Shown here: positions 47,903 through 57,454 of the stretch, in pieces
How positions within the stretch are numbered: position 1 is the stretch's first letter
How the letters are laid out: each line of letters starts with the position of its first letter
Origin: an uncultured Bacteroidales bacterium
GTDB taxonomy: Bacteria > Bacteroidota > Bacteroidia > Bacteroidales > Muribaculaceae
Assembly (NCBI GenBank): GCA_949289215.1
Contig: CASENC010000049.1
Coordinates: 1 to 64,000, forward strand
Length of the DNA stretch: 64,000 nt
Direction: 5' to 3'
Program-made: the position numbers and the translations under genes
Notes under the pieces: generated by a model
Database searches by the model: none
Told to the model about the DNA's origin: nothing
Seen by the model: the letters and a program-made list of their open reading frames with translations, nothing else

Positions 47903-49363
47903 ATGGCGGCAGAAACGGAACTAAATAGAAACAAGAAATTCATGAAAGATGTTGGAATCTATGCCATAGGCAACTTGGGTTCCAAGATTATAACATTCTT
48001 GATGGTTCCGTTATATACATATTTCATTGCCGACGTAAGCGATTTCGGATATTATGATTTGTGTCTGTCGGTAGTGTTTTTCTTTGTGCCTTTTGTTACA
48101 TTGCAATTAGGCGACGGGGCTTTCAGGTTCTTGCTGAATGCCGGTAACGATGAATGCCGACAACGAGCCGTGTTGTCGGTTATATATAGGACCTTGGCAT
48201 CAATGTTATCGTTGTCGCTGGTGATCGTGGTGGCTGTTTCAATGTTTTGGCAAATCAAGTATGTGTGGCTTTCGTTAGGTTTGTTATTTGCGATGTCGTT
48301 ACACGACGTAATATCGCAAGTGGCACGAGGCCTTGGCTATTCAAAATTGTATGTGGCATCGGGAATATTGTCATCGATAGGGATTGGTGCTTTCAGTGTC
48401 TTGTTTGTGGTAGTTTTCGAGGCGGGGGTTCCGGGAATATTTTGGGCTAATATACTGTCGAGAGTTGTTGCTATTATTTTTATTGAACTGAAAGTTGGAA
48501 TAATAAGGAAATATTTGTCAGGGAACGATGAAACTGCGGTAATCGGCAGGAAAAGATTGCTTGGCAAAATATTAAAATATTCATTGCCATTGGTCTATAC
48601 GACTATGTATTGGTGGCTGATTAATTGCAGCGACCGTTTCTTTATTGCGCATTATGTGGGATTGGAACAGAATGGTATTTATTCGGTGGCAGTGCGTTTT
48701 ACTGCCATTTTGCAAACATTCGGATTTATTTTCTACCAGGCGTGGCAAGACTCGGCTTTCAGGCAATATAATAGTTCCGATCGGAACAGTTTCTTCTCAA
48801 AAGTGCTCAATGGTTATATCTTTGCCATGGTGGTTATTTTGCTGCTTTATACTTTTGGCTTGAAGATGATTTATCCGTGGCTTGTCGAAGACCGGTATCA
48901 AGGTAGCATCGAGTATCTTTATCCACTCGGCATATCGGCATTTTTGTACACCATGGTTTATTTTACCAATATTATATATCAGTGTGCGCTTGATACTCAT
49001 CGCACCATGGTACAGATGATAGTTGTATCATGCATGAATATAATTCTTAATTTTATATTGGTAAGGTGGCTTGGAGTGTATGGTGTTATAGTGACTTCTA
49101 TCGTTACTTATTTGGTGCTGTTGTTATATAGGATTTTCGACATGGTGCGTTATGTAAAATTAAAGTTGAATATATCTTCGGCTGTGCCCATTATAATGGT
49201 TGTTGTCGGAATGTTGCCGTTTTATTTTGATACTTCGTTGATTCAGGATATTGCATTCTTGTCAGCAGCCATGATATTAATATATCTTGTTTTGCCTAAG
49301 TATTATAAGAATATGTTGTTTTCAAAATTCCATATTCCTGATAAGAATTCAACGCCGGGATAA
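47903..49363 (+). CDS. Polysaccharide flippase (Wzx/MVF-type)
   Basis: A 486-residue inner-membrane protein with about fourteen helices, of the MOP/MviN-Wzx superfamily. It opens KDVGIYAIGNLGSKIITFLMVPLYTYF, the standard start of oligosaccharide flippases, and has LPLVYTTMYWWLINCSDRFFIAHYVG in the middle. It moves undecaprenyl-linked repeat units across the inner membrane for Wzy. I choose ATG 47903 over a GTG two codons earlier. Its end overlaps the convergent GT2 gene by 15 bases. Confidence 0.92.
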   Translation: MAAETELNRNKKFMKDVGIYAIGNLGSKIITFLMVPLYTYFIADVSDFGYYDLCLSVVFFFVPFVTLQLGDGAFRFLLNAGNDECRQRAVLSVIYRTLASMLSLSLVIVVAVSMFWQIKYVWLSLGLLFAMSLHDVISQVARGLGYSKLYVASGILSSIGIGAFSVLFVVVFEAGVPGIFWANILSRVVAIIFIELKVGIIRKYLSGNDETAVIGRKRLLGKILKYSLPLVYTTMYWWLINCSDRFFIAHYVGLEQNGIYSVAVRFTAILQTFGFIFYQAWQDSAFRQYNSSDRNSFFSKVLNGYIFAMVVILLLYTFGLKMIYPWLVEDRYQGSIEYLYPLGISAFLYTMVYFTNIIYQCALDTHRTMVQMIVVSCMNIILNFILVRWLGVYGVIVTSIVTYLVLLLYRIFDMVRYVKLKLNISSAVPIIMVVVGMLPFYFDTSLIQDIAFLSAAMILIYLVLPKYYKNMLFSKFHIPDKNSTPG

Positions 49364-50308
49364 AATTAAGCCGATTGGCATGAACAGAGCTGCAAGCAAT
49401 TTTTTTAATAAACTGTTGCAATCTTTTAGAATCGAGAACACATTGCGACCCGATGTGAAGCCGTCCATGCTTATGCCCACATAGGCTTTCAGTATGAAAA
49501 CGGGGTTGTATATTATATAGCGGCTCAAGTTGTTGATATGGTAAAGCCACAAGTAGTAATTGGCGGCAGATCGGTTTATGTTTTTTGCCGACATTATCGA
49601 GGTTGCTGTGTCGTGGAAATAAATCCTTGCAGCTTCGTCAACGACACGCATCTTGTATTTTTTTGCTATCTCAAACCATACTATGCTCTCGGGGCAAAAT
49701 CTCATGCGTGGGTCATATGACGGGAACGGATATTGTTTTAAAATCTCAACCCGATACATTTCAAGCATCTCACCCTTGATGCGGTATTTCAGTCTCAGGT
49801 CTATTGCCGACACGTCGAGAGGGGAGTGCGGAAGGGGATTCCCGACGATATTCCCGTTTTCTTCTTTGCATCGGGCCGTAACGGCACAAAATCCATCATC
49901 GTTGCCAATGTTGTTCCATTCCCTGAAGTATATTTCAAGAGCATTGGGCAATATGGTGTCGTCGCTGTCTATGGTCAGCCAAAATTCGCCGCAGGCAGCT
50001 TGTTGTATGGCAAAGTTCATTGCCACGTGCTTGCCTTGGTTTTCCTGTTGGTAATAGCGCATGGGCAGGCGGTTCTCGTCGCACCATTTTCTGCACAGTT
50101 CAGCAGTGTTGTCGGTGGAACCGTCGTCCACTATTATCCATTCAAATGTCACTTTTGAACCGTTGTAATATGGTGGTATTATGCTTAGCAGCGATTCGTA
50201 TGTGCGTGTTATGGTATCTTTACGGTTGTATGTCGAAGTAAAGAACGTCAGTGTATATTTATGGTTCCCGCATTTGAATTTGTCGCTTTGGTATTTTAGA
50301 ACAGCCAT
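49349..50308 (-). CDS. GT2 family glycosyltransferase
   Basis: A 319-residue GT-A glycosyltransferase: TLTFFTSTYNRKDTITRTYESL, the donor motif WIIVDDGSTDNT, the loop ENQGKHVAMNFAI, the DxD-type LTIDSDD, and a later acceptor region. The C terminus has a hydrophobic stretch (LLAALFMPIGLIL) that may touch the membrane. It runs against the polysaccharide operon but very probably contributes to the same glycan. A TACCTTTG -7 element is at 50340-50347. Confidence 0.9.
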   Translation of the reverse strand: MAVLKYQSDKFKCGNHKYTLTFFTSTYNRKDTITRTYESLLSIIPPYYNGSKVTFEWIIVDDGSTDNTAELCRKWCDENRLPMRYYQQENQGKHVAMNFAIQQAACGEFWLTIDSDDTILPNALEIYFREWNNIGNDDGFCAVTARCKEENGNIVGNPLPHSPLDVSAIDLRLKYRIKGEMLEMYRVEILKQYPFPSYDPRMRFCPESIVWFEIAKKYKMRVVDEAARIYFHDTATSIMSAKNINRSAANYYLWLYHINNLSRYIIYNPVFILKAYVGISMDGFTSGRNVFSILKDCNSLLKKLLAALFMPIGLILSRR

Positions 50309-50339
50309 AGAGTTAGGAAAATTTATATTGCTTATATTA

Positions 50340-50347
50340 ACAAAGGT
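50340..50347 (-). promoter_or_regulatory. -7 element of the GT2 gene
   Basis: TACCTTTG on the minus strand matches TAnnTTTG and lies about 32 bases before the start at 50308. No convincing -33 TTTG is present. Confidence 0.45.
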
Positions 50348-50411
50348 ACTGAATTATTTTCGTAAGAAAGATTGGTTGGCATATGTTTTTTGCCCGAGAG
50401 GCGTTTCCCAT

Positions 50412-50450
50412 AAAAAAATCGGGAACGGGCTTATATTAAGCTTCGTTCCC
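50412..50450 (-). terminator. Rho-independent terminator of ychF
   Basis: An outer stem GGGAACG/CGTTCCC and inner stem GCTTA/TAAGC stand about 30 bases past the ychF stop. On the minus strand they are followed by a TTTTTTT tract. Confidence 0.8.
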
Positions 50451-50478
50451 GGGGTATGTTATGAAAAGTCGGAATGTG

Positions 50479-51582
50479 TTACACGTTGAAGCGGAAGTGC
50501 ATGATGTCGCCGTCCTGGACTATGTAGTCCTTGCCTTCGACATACATCTTGCCGGCTTCCTTCACGGCGGCTTCGCTGCCCAGTGCCACGTAGTCGTCGT
50601 ATTTTATCACTTCGGCGCGGATGAAGCCTTTCTCAAAGTCGCTGTGTATTACTCCGGCGCATTGCGGAGCCTTGCTGCCGCGGCGGAATGTCCATGCGCG
50701 CACCTCTTGCGGGCCGGCGGTGAGGAATGTTTCAAGGTTGAGCAATTTGTAGGCTGCCTTGATGAGGCGGTTCACGCCCGATTCCTCAAGCCCTATTTCG
50801 GCAAGGAACATTTGCTTGTCTTCATACGAGTCGAGTTCGGCGATTTCCGATTCTATTTTTGCGGCCACGATGAGTATTTCGGCACCTTCTTCTTTCACGG
50901 CCTCGCGCACCATGTCAACGTAGTGGTTGCCGTTGACGGCACTTGCATCGTCAACATTGCACACATATAACACCGGCTTATTAGTGAGCAGGAACAGGTC
51001 GTGAGCAGCTTTCTGTTCTTCTTTACTTTCGAATTGCACCGTGCGTGCCGGTTTTCCTTGTTCCAGTGCTTCCTTATACCGGCTCAGCACCTCGTATTGC
51101 AGTTTTGCCTGTTTGTCGCCGCCCGTCTGTGCCTGTTTCTGCACGCGGCCTATGCGGCCCTCGATGGTTTCGAGATCCTTCAGTTGCAGTTCGTAGTCGA
51201 TGATTTCCTTGTCGCGCACCGGATCGACAGTTCCATCGACGTGTGTGATGTTATCGTCGTCGAAGCAGCGCAATACGTGCAAAATGGCATCGGTCTCGCG
51301 GATGTTGGCAAGGAACTTGTTGCCCAAGCCTTCACCTTTCGATGCACCTTTCACCAACCCGGCAATGTCAACAATCTCGACCGTTGTCGGGACAATCTTT
51401 TGCGGGTTAACCAACTTGGCCAGTACGTTGAGCCGTTCGTCGGGTACAGTAATAACGCCCACGTTGGGCTCGATGGTGCAGAAAGGGAAGTTTGCAGACT
51501 GTGCCTTAGCGTTTGAAAGGCAGTTGAATAGGGTCGATTTGCCCACGTTGGGCAGCCCCACTATGCCACATTGAAGAGCCAT
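50479..51582 (-). CDS. ychF: Redox-regulated ATPase YchF (Obg-family)
   Basis: A 367-residue cytoplasmic P-loop protein of the TRAFAC/Obg group that binds ribosomes and prefers [15 protein letters not shown] is the P-loop. [20 protein letters not shown] is the switch region, and the G4 region reads [15 protein letters not shown], not the NKxD of true GTPases. The C terminus is a TGS domain ([40 protein letters not shown]). Length is standard. It is driven by a promoter inside one of two 34-bp repeats upstream. Confidence 0.97.
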
Positions 51583-51611
51583 ATCTATTTAAGTATCTTG
51601 ATTTCTGAGTG

Positions 51612-51643
51612 CAAAGGTAGTGCAAGGCGAGCGCAAAAGCAAA
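51612..51643 (-). promoter_or_regulatory. Promoter of ychF inside repeat copy 1
   Basis: On the minus strand TTTG, 20 bases and TACCTTTG match the consensus exactly. The transcript would start near 51605, leaving about 23 bases before the ATG. Confidence 0.65.
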
Positions 51644-51646
51644 TCA
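51613..51646. repeat. 34-bp direct repeat, copy 1
   Basis: A 34-bp sequence starting AAAGGTAGTGCAAGGCGAGC is identical to 51693-51726, 80 bp away. It contains the ychF promoter. Confidence 0.9.
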
Positions 51647-51692
51647 TGCTTGCATGAATTTGCTGTTTGCCGAGCCGCCGCCCACGTTATGG

Positions 51693-51726
51693 AAAGGTAG
51701 TGCAAGGCGAGCGCAAAAGCAAATCA
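51693..51726. repeat. 34-bp direct repeat, copy 2
   Basis: Identical to 51613-51646. The base next to it is G, not C, so its -7 reads TACCTTTC, probably weakening it as a promoter. It lies between ychF and the divergent FtsZ-like gene. Confidence 0.9.
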
Positions 51727-51753
51727 AGTCTCGGCTGTTTCGTTGATTTTTCG

Positions 51754-51761
51754 TATTTTTG
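51754..51761 (+). promoter_or_regulatory. -7 element of the FtsZ-C-like gene
   Basis: TATTTTTG matches TAnnTTTG, 60 bases before the ATG at 51822. The -33 position has no clear TTTG. Confidence 0.4.
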
Positions 51762-51821
51762 CAGTATATCCGATACTGCATTTATATTCCTTGTCAAACA
51801 ACATTATAATTAACTGGTATT

Positions 51822-52277
51822 ATGACAGACGACTGCAAGAATGAAATTTTGGAGCTGCTTGAAAAGCAAGCAGGCGGCCTTGCCTCGAAAGAGGAAATAA
51901 TCGACATGATTGAGAATGGTTTCATTGCCGGCGACAATCTTATTAGTATTGATCATAACGATGTGTTGCAGACTATAAAAGGCATGAGTGAAATCGATGC
52001 TGCAAGTGCCTCGGGCTTGAACTCCGACCTGTATGCGATGCTTAAGGATGCAATCTCCCGGATTTCTGCCGCCCATGGCGGCAAGGCTCCATCGAGCATG
52101 CTGATTACGTTCCATATCCCACGTGACGGTAATTTCATGATTGGCCACATGGACGGCATGAATCAATGCCTTGATGAAATAGAAGGCAATCCCGATATAA
52201 TATGGGGGGTAGCAAATGTTGACGGCATGGCAGCCGATGAGGTGAAAATATTCCTGATGACTGGGTTCAAGGGTTAA
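51822..52277 (+). CDS. Stand-alone FtsZ C-terminal-half-like protein
   Basis: I do not know this 151-residue protein as a named family. From residue 36 on, it reads like the second half of FtsZ. DNLISIDHNDVLQTIKGMSE corresponds to the T7 loop, GLxNVDFADV in FtsZ, with both acidic positions kept (D44 and D47). SASGLNSDLYAMLKDAIS fits the helix after it. Residues 90-105 would be the first strand of the C-terminal domain. DIIWGVANVD (125-134) and VKIFLMTGF (141-149) match the DIxVIWGVAxD and VKITVLATGF strands of Bacteroidetes FtsZ. The N-terminal GTP-binding Rossmann half and the C-terminal tail are missing. It could bind the nucleotide face of FtsZ and cap filaments, but this is inference. It stands alone, divergent from ychF, with its own terminator. 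Confidence 0.7.
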   Translation: MTDDCKNEILELLEKQAGGLASKEEIIDMIENGFIAGDNLISIDHNDVLQTIKGMSEIDAASASGLNSDLYAMLKDAISRISAAHGGKAPSSMLITFHIPRDGNFMIGHMDGMNQCLDEIEGNPDIIWGVANVDGMAADEVKIFLMTGFKG

Positions 52278-52306
52278 CCGGCTAAAAGAGCAGGTGTTTA
52301 TCTTAT

Positions 52307-52344
52307 AAGGAAGGGAGCTTGCCATCGCGGCAGCTCCCTTCCTT
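52307..52344 (+). terminator. Terminator of the FtsZ-C-like gene
   Basis: A perfect 13-bp stem AAGGAAGGGAGCT/AGCTCCCTTCCTT with a twelve-base loop lies 30 bases after the stop. It separates the gene from the convergent Sus locus. Confidence 0.7.
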
Positions 52345-52419
52345 GATACTGTTTATTCATGAGATTAAGGTTATTCTTCTTTACCCAAATGTATATATTA
52401 TTTACCTATGATTGATATT

Positions 52420-54546
52420 TCATTTTTTAGGAACAAGGCGCATGGCAAAACCGCCGCCGGGGGCCACGTATTGCTTTAACCGCGTATTGTGGTTGATTTT
52501 TTTCTTGGTAGTAATGCTGTATGACTGTGGATTGTCCTTGTAATGGGCATCTTTGCCATCGGCATATATCGTAGCTTCATAATCCACACCTTCGGGCAGG
52601 AAACTGAAGTCTATTTCGGCCGTGCGGGCATTTTCATCGGTCACACCGCCTACATACCAGTCTTGGGAATGCTTGTCGCGGCGTGCAACGGTGATGTAAT
52701 CGCCCGGTTCTGCCTCAAGGTAACGGCTGTCGCTCCAGTCAACAGGCACATCTTTGATGAATTGGAATGCGTCGGGGAATCGCTTGTAATTCTCGGGCAG
52801 GTCGCAGGCCATTTGCAGCGGGCTCGGCATTGTGAGGTACAATGCCAGCTGGCGGGCAAGTGTGGTCAATGCCTGTCCGGTTTTGCCTTCATTATAATAG
52901 CTCAGGCGAGTTTCAAACAATCCGGGGGTATAATCCATCGGGCCGCCTTTAAGCCTTGTGAAAGGCAATATGGTGGTATGCTCGGGTGGATTGCCTCCCA
53001 TCGATTCAAACTCTCCACCGCGAGCCGACTCCTGGGCTACCCAGTTGGGATAAGTGCGGCACAACCCGGTTGGTCGCACGGCTTCGTGGCTATCGACCAT
53101 GATGCGATAATCGGCGGCACGCTTGGCTACGTGTAAATAATGGTTTACCATCCATTGCGATGAGTGGTGTTCGCTGCGAGGTATGATGCCACCCACATAA
53201 CCAGTCTTTACCGAATTGTAACCGTGGTCCACCATATATTGGAAGGCGCGGTCGAGTTGGCGTTCATAGTCGGCGGCATTGGCTGCGGTTTCGTGGTGCA
53301 TGATGATTTTCACCCCGCGATCGGCGGCATATTGCTGCAATTCATCGATGTCAAAGTCGGGATAAGGCTTGTCGAAGAGGAATTGACGGTTTTTGCGGAA
53401 ACTTGCCCAGTCTTCCCAACCTTCGTTCCATCCTTCCACCAGCACACCGTCTATGCCGTTTTCGGCAGCGAAATCAATGTAGCGTTTCACATTTTCGGTA
53501 TTGGCTGCATGGCGTCCGTTGGGAGTAAGTTTTGTATAGTCGGTTATGCCGGGCTTTGCCTTGTAATAGTCGCTGTAGGCCCAAGTGCGTTGTGTGCCTA
53601 TGAACATTTCCCACCACACGCCGACAAATTTTTGCGGCTTAATCCACGACGTATCTTCTATCTTGCACGGTTCGTTAAGATTGTAGATAAGTTGCGATGC
53701 AAGAATGTCGCAGGCATTGTCGGCAACGATGACGGTGCGCCACGGTGTGTTGAACGGCAATTGCACGTAAGCTGCCACGCCGTTTACATCGGGAGTGAGG
53801 TGAGCCGAAAGGCCGTAGTTCAATGTATCAACATCAAGCGACATGGCTGCATAATCCACAAGTGCGGCTTCGTGTATGTTGATGTACATCCCTCCATCGG
53901 GACTTTTCATCATCAGTGGGGTTTGCACAGTAAGTTTCTTGATAGCCTGGCTTTCGGAGTGGCGTCCGCGGTAACGGTCAAGTGCTGCTGCCACTTGTGA
54001 TAATGGAGATGTTGCATACAGGTATTCGTCGGTATCGTAATCTCCCGGCATACAGTACATGGTGTTGTCGGCAGCAAGATTGAATTCGGTGGCCTCGTCC
54101 ATCACCGCAAGGTAGTTCACCGGTTCTTGTTCGGGCAACTCGTAGCGGAAGCCAAGGCCATCGTCGAACAGGCGGAAACGAACAGTCATCGTCACCCCGT
54201 TCTCGCTGTTCTGTGCAAGAGTCACGGCAAGTTCGTTGTAATGGTCGCGAACGGTGGCATATTCGCCCCAAACAGGCTCCCATGTGCTGTCGTGTGAGGT
54301 TGTTGCAACGTCGGTTACCGCAAAGCCGGTGGTGAAATCGGCTTCGCGTCCCGAAAGTCCGAGCAGGCTGTTCTTGATTACTGCGTTGCCATCCAACGTC
54401 AGGCCGTAGAATGGTTGACCGTTGTCGTTTATATCTACCGAAAGCTGCAACCGGCCATTGGGAGAGCTAATCGTGTCGGCTGCCATGGCGCACAGTGGCA
54501 ATGTGGCAGCGACAACTGAAAATATCTTATTTAGCAAATGTTTCAT
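52420..54546 (-). CDS. susB: GH97 alpha-glucosidase (SusB-like)
   Basis: A 708-residue exported glycoside hydrolase of family 97, like SusB, which releases glucose from malto-oligosaccharides in the periplasm. A signal peptide (residues 1-23, TLPLCAMAAD) leads into the N-terminal beta-sandwich (about 25-270), the TIM barrel (about 280-590) and a C-terminal beta domain. The barrel carries VEGWNEGWEDW, the acidic positions in MHHETAAN and VDSHEAVRPTG (candidate bases and Ca2+ ligands of inverting GH97), and ARGGEFESMGGNPPEHTT (candidate general acid). I use ATG 54546, which gives a proper signal peptide; the open frame reaches 54594 into the upstream gene. It is the last gene of the starch operon. 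Confidence 0.93.
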   Translation of the reverse strand: MKHLLNKIFSVVAATLPLCAMAADTISSPNGRLQLSVDINDNGQPFYGLTLDGNAVIKNSLLGLSGREADFTTGFAVTDVATTSHDSTWEPVWGEYATVRDHYNELAVTLAQNSENGVTMTVRFRLFDDGLGFRYELPEQEPVNYLAVMDEATEFNLAADNTMYCMPGDYDTDEYLYATSPLSQVAAALDRYRGRHSESQAIKKLTVQTPLMMKSPDGGMYINIHEAALVDYAAMSLDVDTLNYGLSAHLTPDVNGVAAYVQLPFNTPWRTVIVADNACDILASQLIYNLNEPCKIEDTSWIKPQKFVGVWWEMFIGTQRTWAYSDYYKAKPGITDYTKLTPNGRHAANTENVKRYIDFAAENGIDGVLVEGWNEGWEDWASFRKNRQFLFDKPYPDFDIDELQQYAADRGVKIIMHHETAANAADYERQLDRAFQYMVDHGYNSVKTGYVGGIIPRSEHHSSQWMVNHYLHVAKRAADYRIMVDSHEAVRPTGLCRTYPNWVAQESARGGEFESMGGNPPEHTTILPFTRLKGGPMDYTPGLFETRLSYYNEGKTGQALTTLARQLALYLTMPSPLQMACDLPENYKRFPDAFQFIKDVPVDWSDSRYLEAEPGDYITVARRDKHSQDWYVGGVTDENARTAEIDFSFLPEGVDYEATIYADGKDAHYKDNPQSYSITTKKKINHNTRLKQYVAPGGGFAMRLVPKK

Positions 54547-54568
54547 ATACACACAAATTATGTCTCGG

Positions 54569-55912
54569 TTATTTATAATAAATGGCATATCCATAACCGG
54601 CGAGGTCGATTGTCAAGGGCAATGTCGCATCGGTTCCGGTGAGCATATCACGCATTTGAGTACCCGAGTAGGCCATCGGGACTTTTACCGTAGCCTGTTC
54701 TCCTGTGGGGTTAACCATTACGAGCATCGAGTGAGAGCCATTGGTGCGGGCAAATGTCACTACGTCGCCTGTTGAATATGTGAGCAATTCACCACCACGG
54801 GCATCGGCAGTGGCTGTGTATATGCTGTTGATAAGGGCATACACATCGGCTTTTTCGCTGTTCCACGTGAGCGGGTTATAGTTGAAGAACGAGAGTGTAC
54901 CGTTGTCCGACAATTCGGTTTCCATCGAGGAATACACAATCGGTGTGCCGTTAAGCATCGCAGTCAGCGCATATGCGGCCGGTAGAGCATCGGCACCGCC
55001 GTAAAGCGACGCAAGGGTATTTGACGAAGCCACATCGTGGTTATACACATATCGCATTACCTTTGCCGCATCATCAATCGGGGCAAGCAATTCGTCGGCT
55101 TTCTCGAAGAATGTTTTGATGTCGCCGCCGTTGAACAGGTTCTTTAGCAGTGTGGCATACGACCAGTCGTAGTACATATCAAACCCGTCCTTCAGGTAAT
55201 CGCTGCCTTCCGATTCTGACAGCATGAACAATTCACTGTCGATGGCACGCAATTGCTTTATTGCATCGGCCCAAAAGTCGTGGGGCACACCGTCGGTATA
55301 GTCACAACGATAGCCGTCGATGCCCACAGTCGTGACCCAATACTTCATGGCATCAATCATGGCCGCACGCATGGCGGCATTGTCATAGTTCAGTTCGGCC
55401 ACATCGTTCCAGTTCTGCCCCGGAGGCGTGATTATGTTCCCTGCACCGTCCTGCGCATACCAGTCGGGATGCTCTGTAATCCAGGCATTATCCCACGATG
55501 TGTGGTTGGCCACCCAGTCGAGTATCACCTTCATGCCCATAGAGTGCGCATTATCCACGAGAAACTTTAAGTCATCGACAGTGCCGTAATGCGAATTTAT
55601 GGCTTTATAATCTTTTATGCAATAGGGAGAACCTACCGATTTCAGCTCGCCCGGCTCGCACACGGGCATAATCCACAGCACCGTGGTTCCCATCGCCTTT
55701 ATTTCATCGAGACGGTCGTTGATTGCATCAAGGCAATTGACGGTGGCGAAGAAACGCGGGTTGGCCTCGTATATCACCATAGTGCCTGCGGCAGCTGCCG
55801 GAGTGGTTGTGCCAGGGCCGGGAGCCGGTTCGTCGTCCGACGAGCAGCCGCCCATCGCAAACAGCGAGCTTGCAAGCATCAATGATGACAATAATATCTT
55901 AGTCGTTTTCAT
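54569..55912 (-). CDS. GH13 alpha-amylase lipoprotein (SusG-like)
   Basis: A 447-residue surface-type lipoprotein (lipobox AMGGC, C23, followed by the acidic SSDDEP, a pattern linked to export to the cell surface). The GH13 barrel has VILDWVANH as region I. D204 in GYRCDYTDG is the nucleophile, E233 in FMLSESEG the acid/base, and D293 in YNHD the third acid. It is shorter than B. thetaiotaomicron SusG (about 690 residues) and lacks the inserted CBM58, so starch binding must come from the neighbouring CBM protein. It would make the first cut in starch at the cell surface. It follows the CBM gene by about 100 bp that contain a palindromic repeat. Confidence 0.92.
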   Translation of the reverse strand: MKTTKILLSSLMLASSLFAMGGCSSDDEPAPGPGTTTPAAAAGTMVIYEANPRFFATVNCLDAINDRLDEIKAMGTTVLWIMPVCEPGELKSVGSPYCIKDYKAINSHYGTVDDLKFLVDNAHSMGMKVILDWVANHTSWDNAWITEHPDWYAQDGAGNIITPPGQNWNDVAELNYDNAAMRAAMIDAMKYWVTTVGIDGYRCDYTDGVPHDFWADAIKQLRAIDSELFMLSESEGSDYLKDGFDMYYDWSYATLLKNLFNGGDIKTFFEKADELLAPIDDAAKVMRYVYNHDVASSNTLASLYGGADALPAAYALTAMLNGTPIVYSSMETELSDNGTLSFFNYNPLTWNSEKADVYALINSIYTATADARGGELLTYSTGDVVTFARTNGSHSMLVMVNPTGEQATVKVPMAYSGTQMRDMLTGTDATLPLTIDLAGYGYAIYYK

Positions 55913-55971
55913 TCGTTCGTTTTATTTTATTGCGGTTAATCGCATTCAGGGTTAATTGCGTCAAGGTTCAA

Positions 55972-56001
55972 TGTAGAGACGCGATTAATCGCGTCTCTAC
56001 A
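55972..56001. repeat. Perfect 30-bp palindrome, GTAGAGACGC family copy 2
   Basis: A perfect palindrome, each half being TGTAGAGACGCGATT, lies in the Sus operon between the CBM gene and the amylase gene, 11 bp after the CBM stop. It can form a 15-bp stem with no loop, so as RNA it may stabilise the upstream message or limit read-through. It shares its arm with the element at 45321-45348. Confidence 0.75.
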
Positions 56002-56011
56002 TCATTTCGAT

Positions 56012-57454
56012 TTATTCCTTTTCGGTAACACTTGTGGCGGTTACAGTAAGATAATAGTCGCGGTCGAGGGTTGCTGCGAAGTCGGGTGCCTGGTCGGTAC
56101 CGTTGTTGAAAATCAGGTTTTGCGATTCGCCGCTTCCTTCGATTTCCCAATATGTGTAGGTGGTGCCCTCTATTTCGGTTGTTCCAGTCGGAGCCATTCC
56201 CGGCCATGCACCGAAAATGTCGTTCACATCACCCCAAGAATACATATAAATTGCATCCCAGCCGGTGAGGTTTTCCACATAAATGGTATAGGCTTCGGCA
56301 GGTTCCGGTTCAGGCTCAGGTTCGGGTTCCGGTTCTACGGCTCCGCCTCCTGTGTAAGAGTTCGGATCTTCAATTTCCACACCTCCGGTAGCTGTAATCG
56401 AATAGTAATAGTCGCGGTCGAGGGTTATACCTGCAAGGTCGAATTGATCATCACCGTTGTTCATTATCATATTTACAAACACGCCTGCATTAGCCTCGCC
56501 TGTGTCGAAATACTTGTAATTTACACCGTTGATGGTGACTTCGCCTGTTGGTGCCATTCCCGGCCATGCACCAAACAGGTCGTTCACTCCGTCGCCCCAT
56601 ACATACAGGTTCAGAGCATCCCAGCCCGTAAGGTCCTCGAAGAAGATTGCATAGCCGTCGTGTTCAACCATTGCGCTTTGGTCGATTTCAACTGCACCGT
56701 CGGGAGTCAATTCAATAAAGTAGTCACGGTCGAGCACTACGGGGAAATCGGCAAGCTGGCTGCCATTGTTATTGTTGTTGAATATGAGGTTCAACGACAA
56801 TCCTGCATTAGCCTCGCCTGTGTCGAAATATTTGTATTCGGTTCCGTCAACAACTTCGGTTCCCGTTGGCAATATGCCCGGCCATGCACCGAATGCCTCG
56901 GCATCGCCATAAGCATACATGGCAAGTGCGTCGTAGCCGCTGTTGTCTATTACATAAATCACATAACCGTCATGAGTGATTTCTTCGCTTGATGCAAAGT
57001 ATGAAGCCCAACGTTCGGCATTGATATTGATGCGCGAACCAACGCCGGCATTGTCGTAGTGCATCACACTGTCGCCTTTCAATGTGCGTTCTTCGCGTTG
57101 GGTAGCCGAGTAAAAGTAGTAACCGTCGGCGAGAGAAGTACCCTCGGCAAACGTTGTGGGATCGAGGTAGATGCCATATTTGTAATCATAGTCGGCAGCC
57201 TTTTCCAATTGCCACAGCGGATTGCCCTTTACGGCATTGGCATCACCGCCGTTGATTGCACCCACTATGTACATTTCATCGCCAATAGGGGTATTGGAAG
57301 GAACTAGCACTTCCACCAAGATGCGGTCGTCGCGCAACTCGAACCGCGGGAGGTCGCTTTCAAAAACTATTTCTTCCTCGTCGCAGCTCTGCAATGTTGC
57401 CATCAGCGGCAGCATCATGAGCAGCAACAGCATATATGAATATATCTTTTTCAT
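56012..57454 (-). CDS. SusE/F-like starch-binding lipoprotein with three CBM26-like modules
   Basis: A 480-residue outer-membrane lipoprotein (lipobox LQSC, C24, followed by DEEE). An N-terminal SusE/F-type domain covers residues about 30-155 and three tandem modules follow. Each module repeats the pattern aromatic-DALxxYxxGD-x-FGAWPG-PTG then a strand with NxIxNN and LDRDY(Y/F). The WDA-L/I-Y-W and GAWPG positions match CBM26 starch-binding modules. A Glu-Pro repeat linker (EPEPEPEPEPEPAE) divides modules 2 and 3. It takes the place of the SusE and SusF pair and would hold starch at the cell surface. Gene order (SusC, SusD, this, GH13) supports this. Confidence 0.88.
   Translation of the reverse strand: MKKIYSYMLLLLMMLPLMATLQSCDEEEIVFESDLPRFELRDDRILVEVLVPSNTPIGDEMYIVGAINGGDANAVKGNPLWQLEKAADYDYKYGIYLDPTTFAEGTSLADGYYFYSATQREERTLKGDSVMHYDNAGVGSRININAERWASYFASSEEITHDGYVIYVIDNSGYDALAMYAYGDAEAFGAWPGILPTGTEVVDGTEYKYFDTGEANAGLSLNLIFNNNNNGSQLADFPVVLDRDYFIELTPDGAVEIDQSAMVEHDGYAIFFEDLTGWDALNLYVWGDGVNDLFGAWPGMAPTGEVTINGVNYKYFDTGEANAGVFVNMIMNNGDDQFDLAGITLDRDYYYSITATGGVEIEDPNSYTGGGAVEPEPEPEPEPEPAEAYTIYVENLTGWDAIYMYSWGDVNDIFGAWPGMAPTGTTEIEGTTYTYWEIEGSGESQNLIFNNGTDQAPDFAATLDRDYYLTVTATSVTEKE

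Follow-up and report, generated by a model that had tools for sequence, protein, structure and literature searches.

A stand-alone homologue of the C-terminal half of FtsZ in Muribaculaceae, possibly acting in trans on an FtsZ-fold partner

The 64,000-nucleotide stretch of DNA from a Muribaculaceae genome analyzed here, which we call the window, encodes at 51822..52277 on the + strand a stand-alone protein of 151 residues that is homologous to the C-terminal half of FtsZ, the T7 loop through the last strand. On the evidence of profile comparisons we regard this homology as settled. We read the gene as a diverged FtsZ derivative whose product would dock its T7 face in trans on the nucleotide face of an FtsZ-fold partner, and we give this reading a probability of roughly 0.4. 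Genomes, contigs and loci are referred to below by our own G, C and L numbers, and the product of the window gene and its relatives as C-halves.

The frame of the C-half gene runs uninterrupted from ATG to TAA over 151 codons, and the coordinates, strand, length and motifs that an earlier note had given for it were all exact. The equivalent of the T7 synergy loop, SIDHND, occupies residues 42-47 (51945..51962, +) with acidic positions D44 and D47, the pair W128-G129 (52203..52208, +) is held in common with the DVIWG strand of Muribaculaceae FtsZ and lies in the motif DIIWGVANVD (residues 125-134), and the motif VKIFLMTGF spans residues 141-149. The protein stops at the last strand and lacks both the C-terminal linker and the tail peptide of FtsZ. 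An N-terminal lead of residues 1-33 (51822..51920, +), which falls outside the hhalign alignment to FtsZ, is probably helical, the helices being taken from a low-confidence model. A promoter-like -7 element had been claimed and a match was indeed present, TATTTTTG at 51754..51761 (+), to what we take to be the consensus of the Bacteroidetes-type -7 box, but the motif occurs in the window at chance frequency (47 occurrences of TANNTTTG versus 45 expected). The presumed 5' leader contains a stem-loop at 51760..51780 (+). The terminator that had likewise been claimed corresponds to a strong stem-loop 3' of the stop codon (52307..52344, +; z -3.9 for that stretch), although this hairpin is absent from the list of the terminator scan and its tail is not T-rich, and we refer to it as a possible terminator only.

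Upstream of the C-half gene lies a divergent ychF gene (50479-51582, -), named by eye from its translation, and on the other side a GH97-like gene (52420-54594, -) is convergent with it, followed by an amylase-like gene (54569-55912, -), both again named by eye. No FtsZ N-domain-like sequence was seen upstream of the C-half gene and no division gene was recognized beside it. Between ychF and the C-half gene we observed a 37-nt direct repeat (51610-51646 and 51690-51726, 80 nt start to start). An antisense frame of 171 residues (51810-52325, -) was rejected as a shadow frame, the homology sitting in the + frame. A full-length FtsZ with the GGGTGTG signature is encoded elsewhere in the source genome by an intact 444-aa frame (G000:C14).

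When the window protein was searched alone no match was obtained in Pfam at E 10 or in NCBIfam at 0.1, because a single sequence as diverged as this one is not matched by the curated models, and PDB sequences returned no FtsZ at E 10. With a profile of six same-genus rows, FtsZ accounted for the 25 best of 30 matches to PDB sequences (best E 7e-5), and with a 19-row profile for the 48 best of 53 (best E 5.7e-11). Alignment of the six same-genus rows with six Muribaculaceae FtsZ sequences by hhalign gave a probability of 98.1%, in agreement with the earlier identification of a C-terminal half that includes the T7 loop. The GTP-binding half had been described as absent, and this was borne out, since hhalign covered only residues 212-335 of the organism's own FtsZ, with nothing corresponding to the N-terminal GTPase domain with GGGTGTG, and the gene upstream is the divergent ychF. 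A single-sequence search of 61 genomes found matches in 15, including the source genome and five other genomes of the same genus (98, 44, 35, 32 and 26% identity); short frames elsewhere were also matched, and the full-length FtsZ of 10 genomes (frames of 440-545 aa) was matched weakly (E 3.6e-5 to 0.008) over residues ~34-149 of the window protein. A profile of eight such proteins had a match in 369 of 397 Muribaculaceae genomes, most of the matches listed being frames of 437-608 aa, and matched the FtsZ of the source genome itself at E 3.6e-15. When 19 family members were scanned singly, 12 matched the NCBIfam ftsZ model TIGR00065 (best 7.6e-8) and 10 matched Pfam FtsZ_C (PF12327) at E 0.1 or better (best 1.6e-4), the window protein being in neither group and the PF12327 scores seen for five members being 13.6-18.7 bits and thus below the curated cut-off of 27. 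From this relationship the window protein is predicted to adopt the fold of the FtsZ C-terminal domain; an AlphaFold2 model made from two near-identical rows had a pLDDT of 41, too low for use.

Residue conservation was assessed in an alignment of 41 C-halves, 15 proteins of a second class of about 240 aa described below, 2 degenerate full-length copies and 32 FtsZ sequences, from which one frame each of L064, L063 and L056 was removed by name and in which the labels of one fusion (L032) and of one frame of L080 were changed. Among the columns conserved to at least 90% in the 32 FtsZ rows, the C-halves held at least 85% only at D44 (88%), D47 (95%), W128 (98%) and G129 (98%), so the acidic residues of the T7 loop have outlasted nearly all other FtsZ-conserved columns. 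Retention of the tryptophan, the glycine and the aspartates could be partly structural, and profile-based detection itself favors retention of the W, the G and both Asp. In the tree the window protein belongs to a clade of nine C-halves (from the source genome, G006, G001, G004, G003, G007, G066, G341 and G156) drawn from four genera (g1, g4, g8 and g9), and D44 and D47, which the earlier note had singled out, are both present in all nine. The clade has support of 99/87 but is less sure than this suggests, because four of the nine members (L055, L087, L006 and L031) have long branches. L052, a C-half of another clade, has Glu at the D47 position. A single origin of C-halves was unsupported by the tree, in which long branches are numerous and no fewer than two changes are needed.

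The frame is uninterrupted in the 98% identical relative and in four further same-genus proteins at 24-43% alignment identity, in line with the view already taken in the earlier note that the gene is not simply debris. A dN/dS of 0.20 between the source genome and G006 (9 nt and 4 aa differences) was discounted, as recombination has made the region a mosaic. When 48000-57000 of the window was compared with L120 of G006, blocks of 98-100% identity were found beside blocks of about 80%, a sign of recombination.

By reading frames, C-half proteins are present in at least 35 of 397 Muribaculaceae genomes and in 13 of 30 genera, a lower bound since it was counted among the matches listed with only some second matches opened; two of these proteins are fusions. 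These and the other genome sets were chosen, not random, and the genomes are metagenome-type assemblies of many contigs. Within the genus no C-half match was found in three of nine genomes, and the window gene is therefore dispensable. Proteins of the second class, about 235-280 aa long, in which a C-half follows an eroded N-domain, were read in 13 genomes (L091-L106, e.g. L098 3122-3844, -). In several loci a gene of this 240-aa class has as neighbors a WYL regulator, a DnaQ-like exonuclease and two small genes, one of 71 aa and one of about 75 aa with a hydrophobic stretch. For 290 genomes from other families of the order, a single match was read as FtsZ only and the 22 genomes giving at least two matches were inspected; C-half-like proteins were found in G593 and G619 and an ambiguous one in G544, the remaining multi-match genomes having FtsZ-length frames and G532 shorter frames, one of which was read as FtsZ. 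The smallest frame among the matches listed for 147 other genomes of the phylum was 396 aa. Among the genomes from the other families of the order, G426, G528, G607 and others have two or three FtsZ-length matches close together on one contig. L056, L063 and L064 carry a second FtsZ-like paralogue, full-length or nearly so, in which GGETGT replaces GGGTGTG; the L064 copy is broken by a stop.

Conservation of the ychF-adjacent location did not hold up: adjacency was found only in the source genome and its close relative G006, the six other same-genus genomes in which ychF was found had no C-half gene in the 1.5-kb flanks, and ychF synteny was accordingly rejected as support. Upstream of ychF at L109-L112, near the site which holds the C-half gene in the source genome, there is an MNT/HEPN-like gene pair (by eye) or one gene of such a pair. 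Across 53 clustered loci, some of which are near copies, genes of the C-half and 240-aa classes had as recurrent neighbors a WYL-type regulator (15 loci), a DnaQ-like exonuclease (7), an ADP-ribosylglycohydrolase (5), a metallophosphoesterase (5) and RtcB (4), the domain being confirmed on one representative each for the first three and the last two being named by eye. The C-half also occurs fused to other domains. In L079 (1883-3898, +) it stands at the end of a protein whose other domains are the alpha, motor and gamma domains of FtsK, and the gene that follows immediately encodes an ADP-ribosylglycohydrolase; in L054 it is preceded by a HAD_SAK domain. In G001 and G004 the C-half gene begins 7 and 9 nt after a glucosidase-like gene (by eye), in G003 and G007 it lies near tsaE- and birA-like genes, and a Sir2-like gene was found close to the C-half of G004 and to a further C-half, that of G281. 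The window gene and the copies in other genomes of its genus have ordinary chromosomal genes around them and do not lie in such islands.

A search with PADLOC gave for the window protein one 14-bit match to REase_II, which looks like chance, and nothing convincing for the half-FtsZ proteins themselves. Phage records contained no relative of the window protein, viral contigs gave no match for three queries and a plasmid search returned one weak match to the window protein (32%, E 0.02); a phage or plasmid origin of the window gene was rejected on these results. Another C-half, L060, had matches in four unverified faecal 'Bacteriophage' records, two of which were opened: L122 (E 1e-4) contains an island with a 240-aa-class gene, and no phage gene was recognized in it, and L123 (E 0.08) carries a frame with an FtsZ signature.

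The complementary half of FtsZ was also found alone. Three of four small proteins encoded near C-half-type genes (L058, L092 and L095; 183-228 aa) scored above the cut-off of the Pfam Tubulin/FtsZ GTPase model, and L071 was dropped as a further candidate for lack of a Pfam match. Seven aligned N-halves matched residues 23-209 of the organism's own FtsZ (99.7%), stopping where the C-halves (212-335) begin, and their T4 motif is altered. The Pfam model detected N-halves in 7 of 41 C-half genomes when G544 was included and in 6 of 40 without it, versus 0 of 19 controls (p 0.16 without G544); one of these controls, G021, has a weak 115-aa match to the C-half profile. A model built on the seven N-halves detected N-half-only proteins in 13 of 41 C-half genomes. 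The split pair of G544 was rejected, since at L095 the frame with the C-half and a TIR domain lacks an ATG ahead of residue 98 and shares 94 nt with the N-half, and therefore 12 of 40 was used instead, versus 1 of 38 controls (Fisher p 0.0015) in what was a chosen set of 78 genomes and not a random one. After the five model-training genomes were dropped the figures were 7 of 35 versus 1 of 38 (p 0.024), and within the genus 3 of 6 C-half genomes versus 0 of 3 (p 0.46). All 12 N-halves were read as proteins, seven of them found only by the model built on the seven N-halves. At L095 (2565-4078, -) the N-half overlaps the frame in which the C-half is joined to a CAP12/Pycsar-type TIR domain, and the locus may be a single frameshifted full-length gene. 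In the control G088 a 731-aa protein (L131 737-2929, -) has an N-half with GGMTGT in its middle and no C-half detected behind it, and it was therefore counted as the one positive control. A weak match in the control G085 was rejected as an N-half, as it sits in a long tubulin-like frame with GGTGSG.

Four pairs of an N-half and a C-half-type gene lie within about 2 kb of each other (G129, G065, G125 and G164; rough chance 0.2% per pair), three of them with a member of the 240-aa class, which has an eroded N-domain of its own, and only that of G129 with a short C-half. In the source genome the C-half is encoded on contig C49 and the N-half on C47, where it makes up the end of a 470-aa protein. 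This protein (L115 1681-3093, -) has repeats, hexapeptide-like by eye, followed by the N-half with GGKTGS, and beside its gene is one for a 229-aa protein (249-938). The 160-aa N-half of G007 (L117) is encoded in overlap with the 5' end of a 493-aa gene that has hydrophobic stretches. An N-half was matched in the source genome, G001 and G007, with no match in G006, G003 and G004. As G006 is listed as 99% complete and has a C-half without an N-half match, the partner of this C-half is probably not an N-half of the kind detected.

That the T7 loop of FtsZ has its role at the nucleotide of the neighboring subunit is in part general background. On the reading given at the outset the gene derives from an FtsZ that lost its GTPase half while both aspartates of the T7 face used in polymerisation were retained, and this face would dock in trans on an FtsZ-fold partner, at the N-terminal face that bears the nucleotide. 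The solitary window copy would most likely have the cell's own full-length FtsZ as its partner, and in genomes which also encode an N-half that protein may be the partner. Docking might keep a monomer from joining a filament or cover the minus end, D44 and D47 could trigger hydrolysis of the partner's GTP, and the net outcome would be a protein that tunes FtsZ assembly. The T7 loop is described in the available part of PMC10333351 as contributing to GTP hydrolysis and, in the filament, as facing the nucleotide of the neighboring subunit. The C-terminal face of FtsZ is the plus end and is bound by SulA, MciZ and MinC, and binding at the N-terminal face is expected to bring nucleation and stabilisation, or sequestration if the subunit is altered (PMC11938149, in part). 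As the window protein consists of the C-terminal face only, its expected binding site is the nucleotide face, either that of FtsZ or that of an N-half, with the minus end or free monomers of FtsZ as the target. The suggestion of the earlier note that such a protein could cap or trim filaments thus becomes one option beside sequestration, minus-end stabilisation and triggering of the GTPase. Retention of exactly the T7 aspartates is the main evidence for this proposed mechanism. Without the FtsZ tail nothing by itself takes the window protein to the Z-ring.

The N-halves and the gene islands, which the earlier note had not seen, add serious rivals to docking on FtsZ. A C-half and a separate N-half could make up one composite subunit or heterodimer that assembles apart from FtsZ, and the complementary alignment, the excess of N-halves in C-half genomes, the four close pairs and the N-half behind a repeat-rich domain in the source genome are consistent with this. 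However, 28 of the 40 C-half genomes, G006, G003 and G004 included, show no N-half, the two halves of the source genome do not share a contig, a 240-aa-class protein is a member of three of the four close pairs, G088 has an N-half without a detected C-half, the T4 motif is altered and the association falls to p 0.46 within the genus and p 0.16 with the Pfam model alone in genomes that were chosen, so that we consider such a composite unlikely. We think it rather unlikely that the half-FtsZ proteins are parts of conflict systems, serving as decoy or sensor of an attack on FtsZ or as assembly trigger, with the window copy a solitary offshoot. The recurrence of WYL regulators, exonucleases, ADP-ribosylglycohydrolases, metallophosphoesterases and RtcB in the clustered loci, the fusions to HAD_SAK, to an FtsK-type motor and ambiguously to a TIR domain, and the patchy distribution of C-halves argue for it, but ordinary chromosomal genes surround the window copy and its relatives within the genus, phage records contained no relative of the window protein and viral contigs none for three queries, the TIR fusion is perhaps one frameshifted gene and PADLOC found nothing convincing.

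Reuse of the domain in an unrelated role, as a scaffold or in metabolite or protein binding with no contact with FtsZ or an N-half, would fit the fast divergence of the C-half, its position directly after a glucosidase-like gene in G001 and G004 and the GH97-like gene which the window copy faces; that the T7 acids are retained better than nearly all other columns makes it improbable. Loss of half of the protein and the lack of a match in three of the nine same-genus genomes are what debris of a duplicated FtsZ gene would leave behind, yet the frames are intact across the nine-member clade, identity within the genus is as low as 24-43% outside the closest pair and no N-half remnant adjoins the window gene, and we hold this explanation to be highly improbable. 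Half-FtsZ proteins may control FtsZ or join bacterial conflict systems. A broader proposal, that N-halves, C-halves and eroded intermediates form a split-FtsZ class of Muribaculaceae stress or conflict switches which reassemble or act in trans, the window protein being a nucleotide-free member whose T7 aspartates would set GTP hydrolysis or assembly of FtsZ, is doubtful.

To our knowledge no family of separate FtsZ halves has been described, the titles and abstracts found by searches of the open-licence PMC literature contained nothing on stand-alone FtsZ halves, and the scattered C-half group is seemingly undescribed. FtsZ is usually seen as one indivisible polymerising GTPase whose best-known inhibitors hit the plus-end face; here many gut Muribaculaceae have the polymerisation face as a gene product of its own, and the nucleotide half likewise occurs by itself. 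These proteins would be natural tools for testing minus-end capping or trans-activation of GTP hydrolysis, and they hint that division control or FtsZ-based conflict biology in gut bacteria has a layer so far unrecognized.

The window protein is homologous to the FtsZ C-terminal domain (PF12327, TIGR00065) from T7 to the last strand, including the T7 Asp pair and WG, but it lacks the GTPase domain, linker and tail of FtsZ, has its own start and stop, diverges much faster and falls below the Pfam cut-off. Tubulin relatives are known in conflict systems, and the tubulin-containing NTP-dependent systems likewise bring FtsZ/tubulin relatives and FtsK-like domains together in their loci; rare FtsZ/tubulin members are mentioned for them, as are tubulin domains accompanied by coiled coils, and the available part of that account makes no mention of separate FtsZ halves (PMC7159879). 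FtsZ-like families of other architectures are also known (PMC2875224, PMC9871819, each in part). Among these FtsZl1 and FtsZl2 are likewise diverged members of the superfamily found by distant similarity and gene context, but as far as the available text of PMC2875224 goes they have the GTPase half with other C-terminal regions, whereas the window protein is without a GTPase half. SulA, MciZ and the MinC N-domain act, as proposed for the window protein, on a polymerisation face of FtsZ, but they bind the C-terminal, plus-end face (PMC11938149, in part), while the window protein is itself that face and should bind the opposite one.
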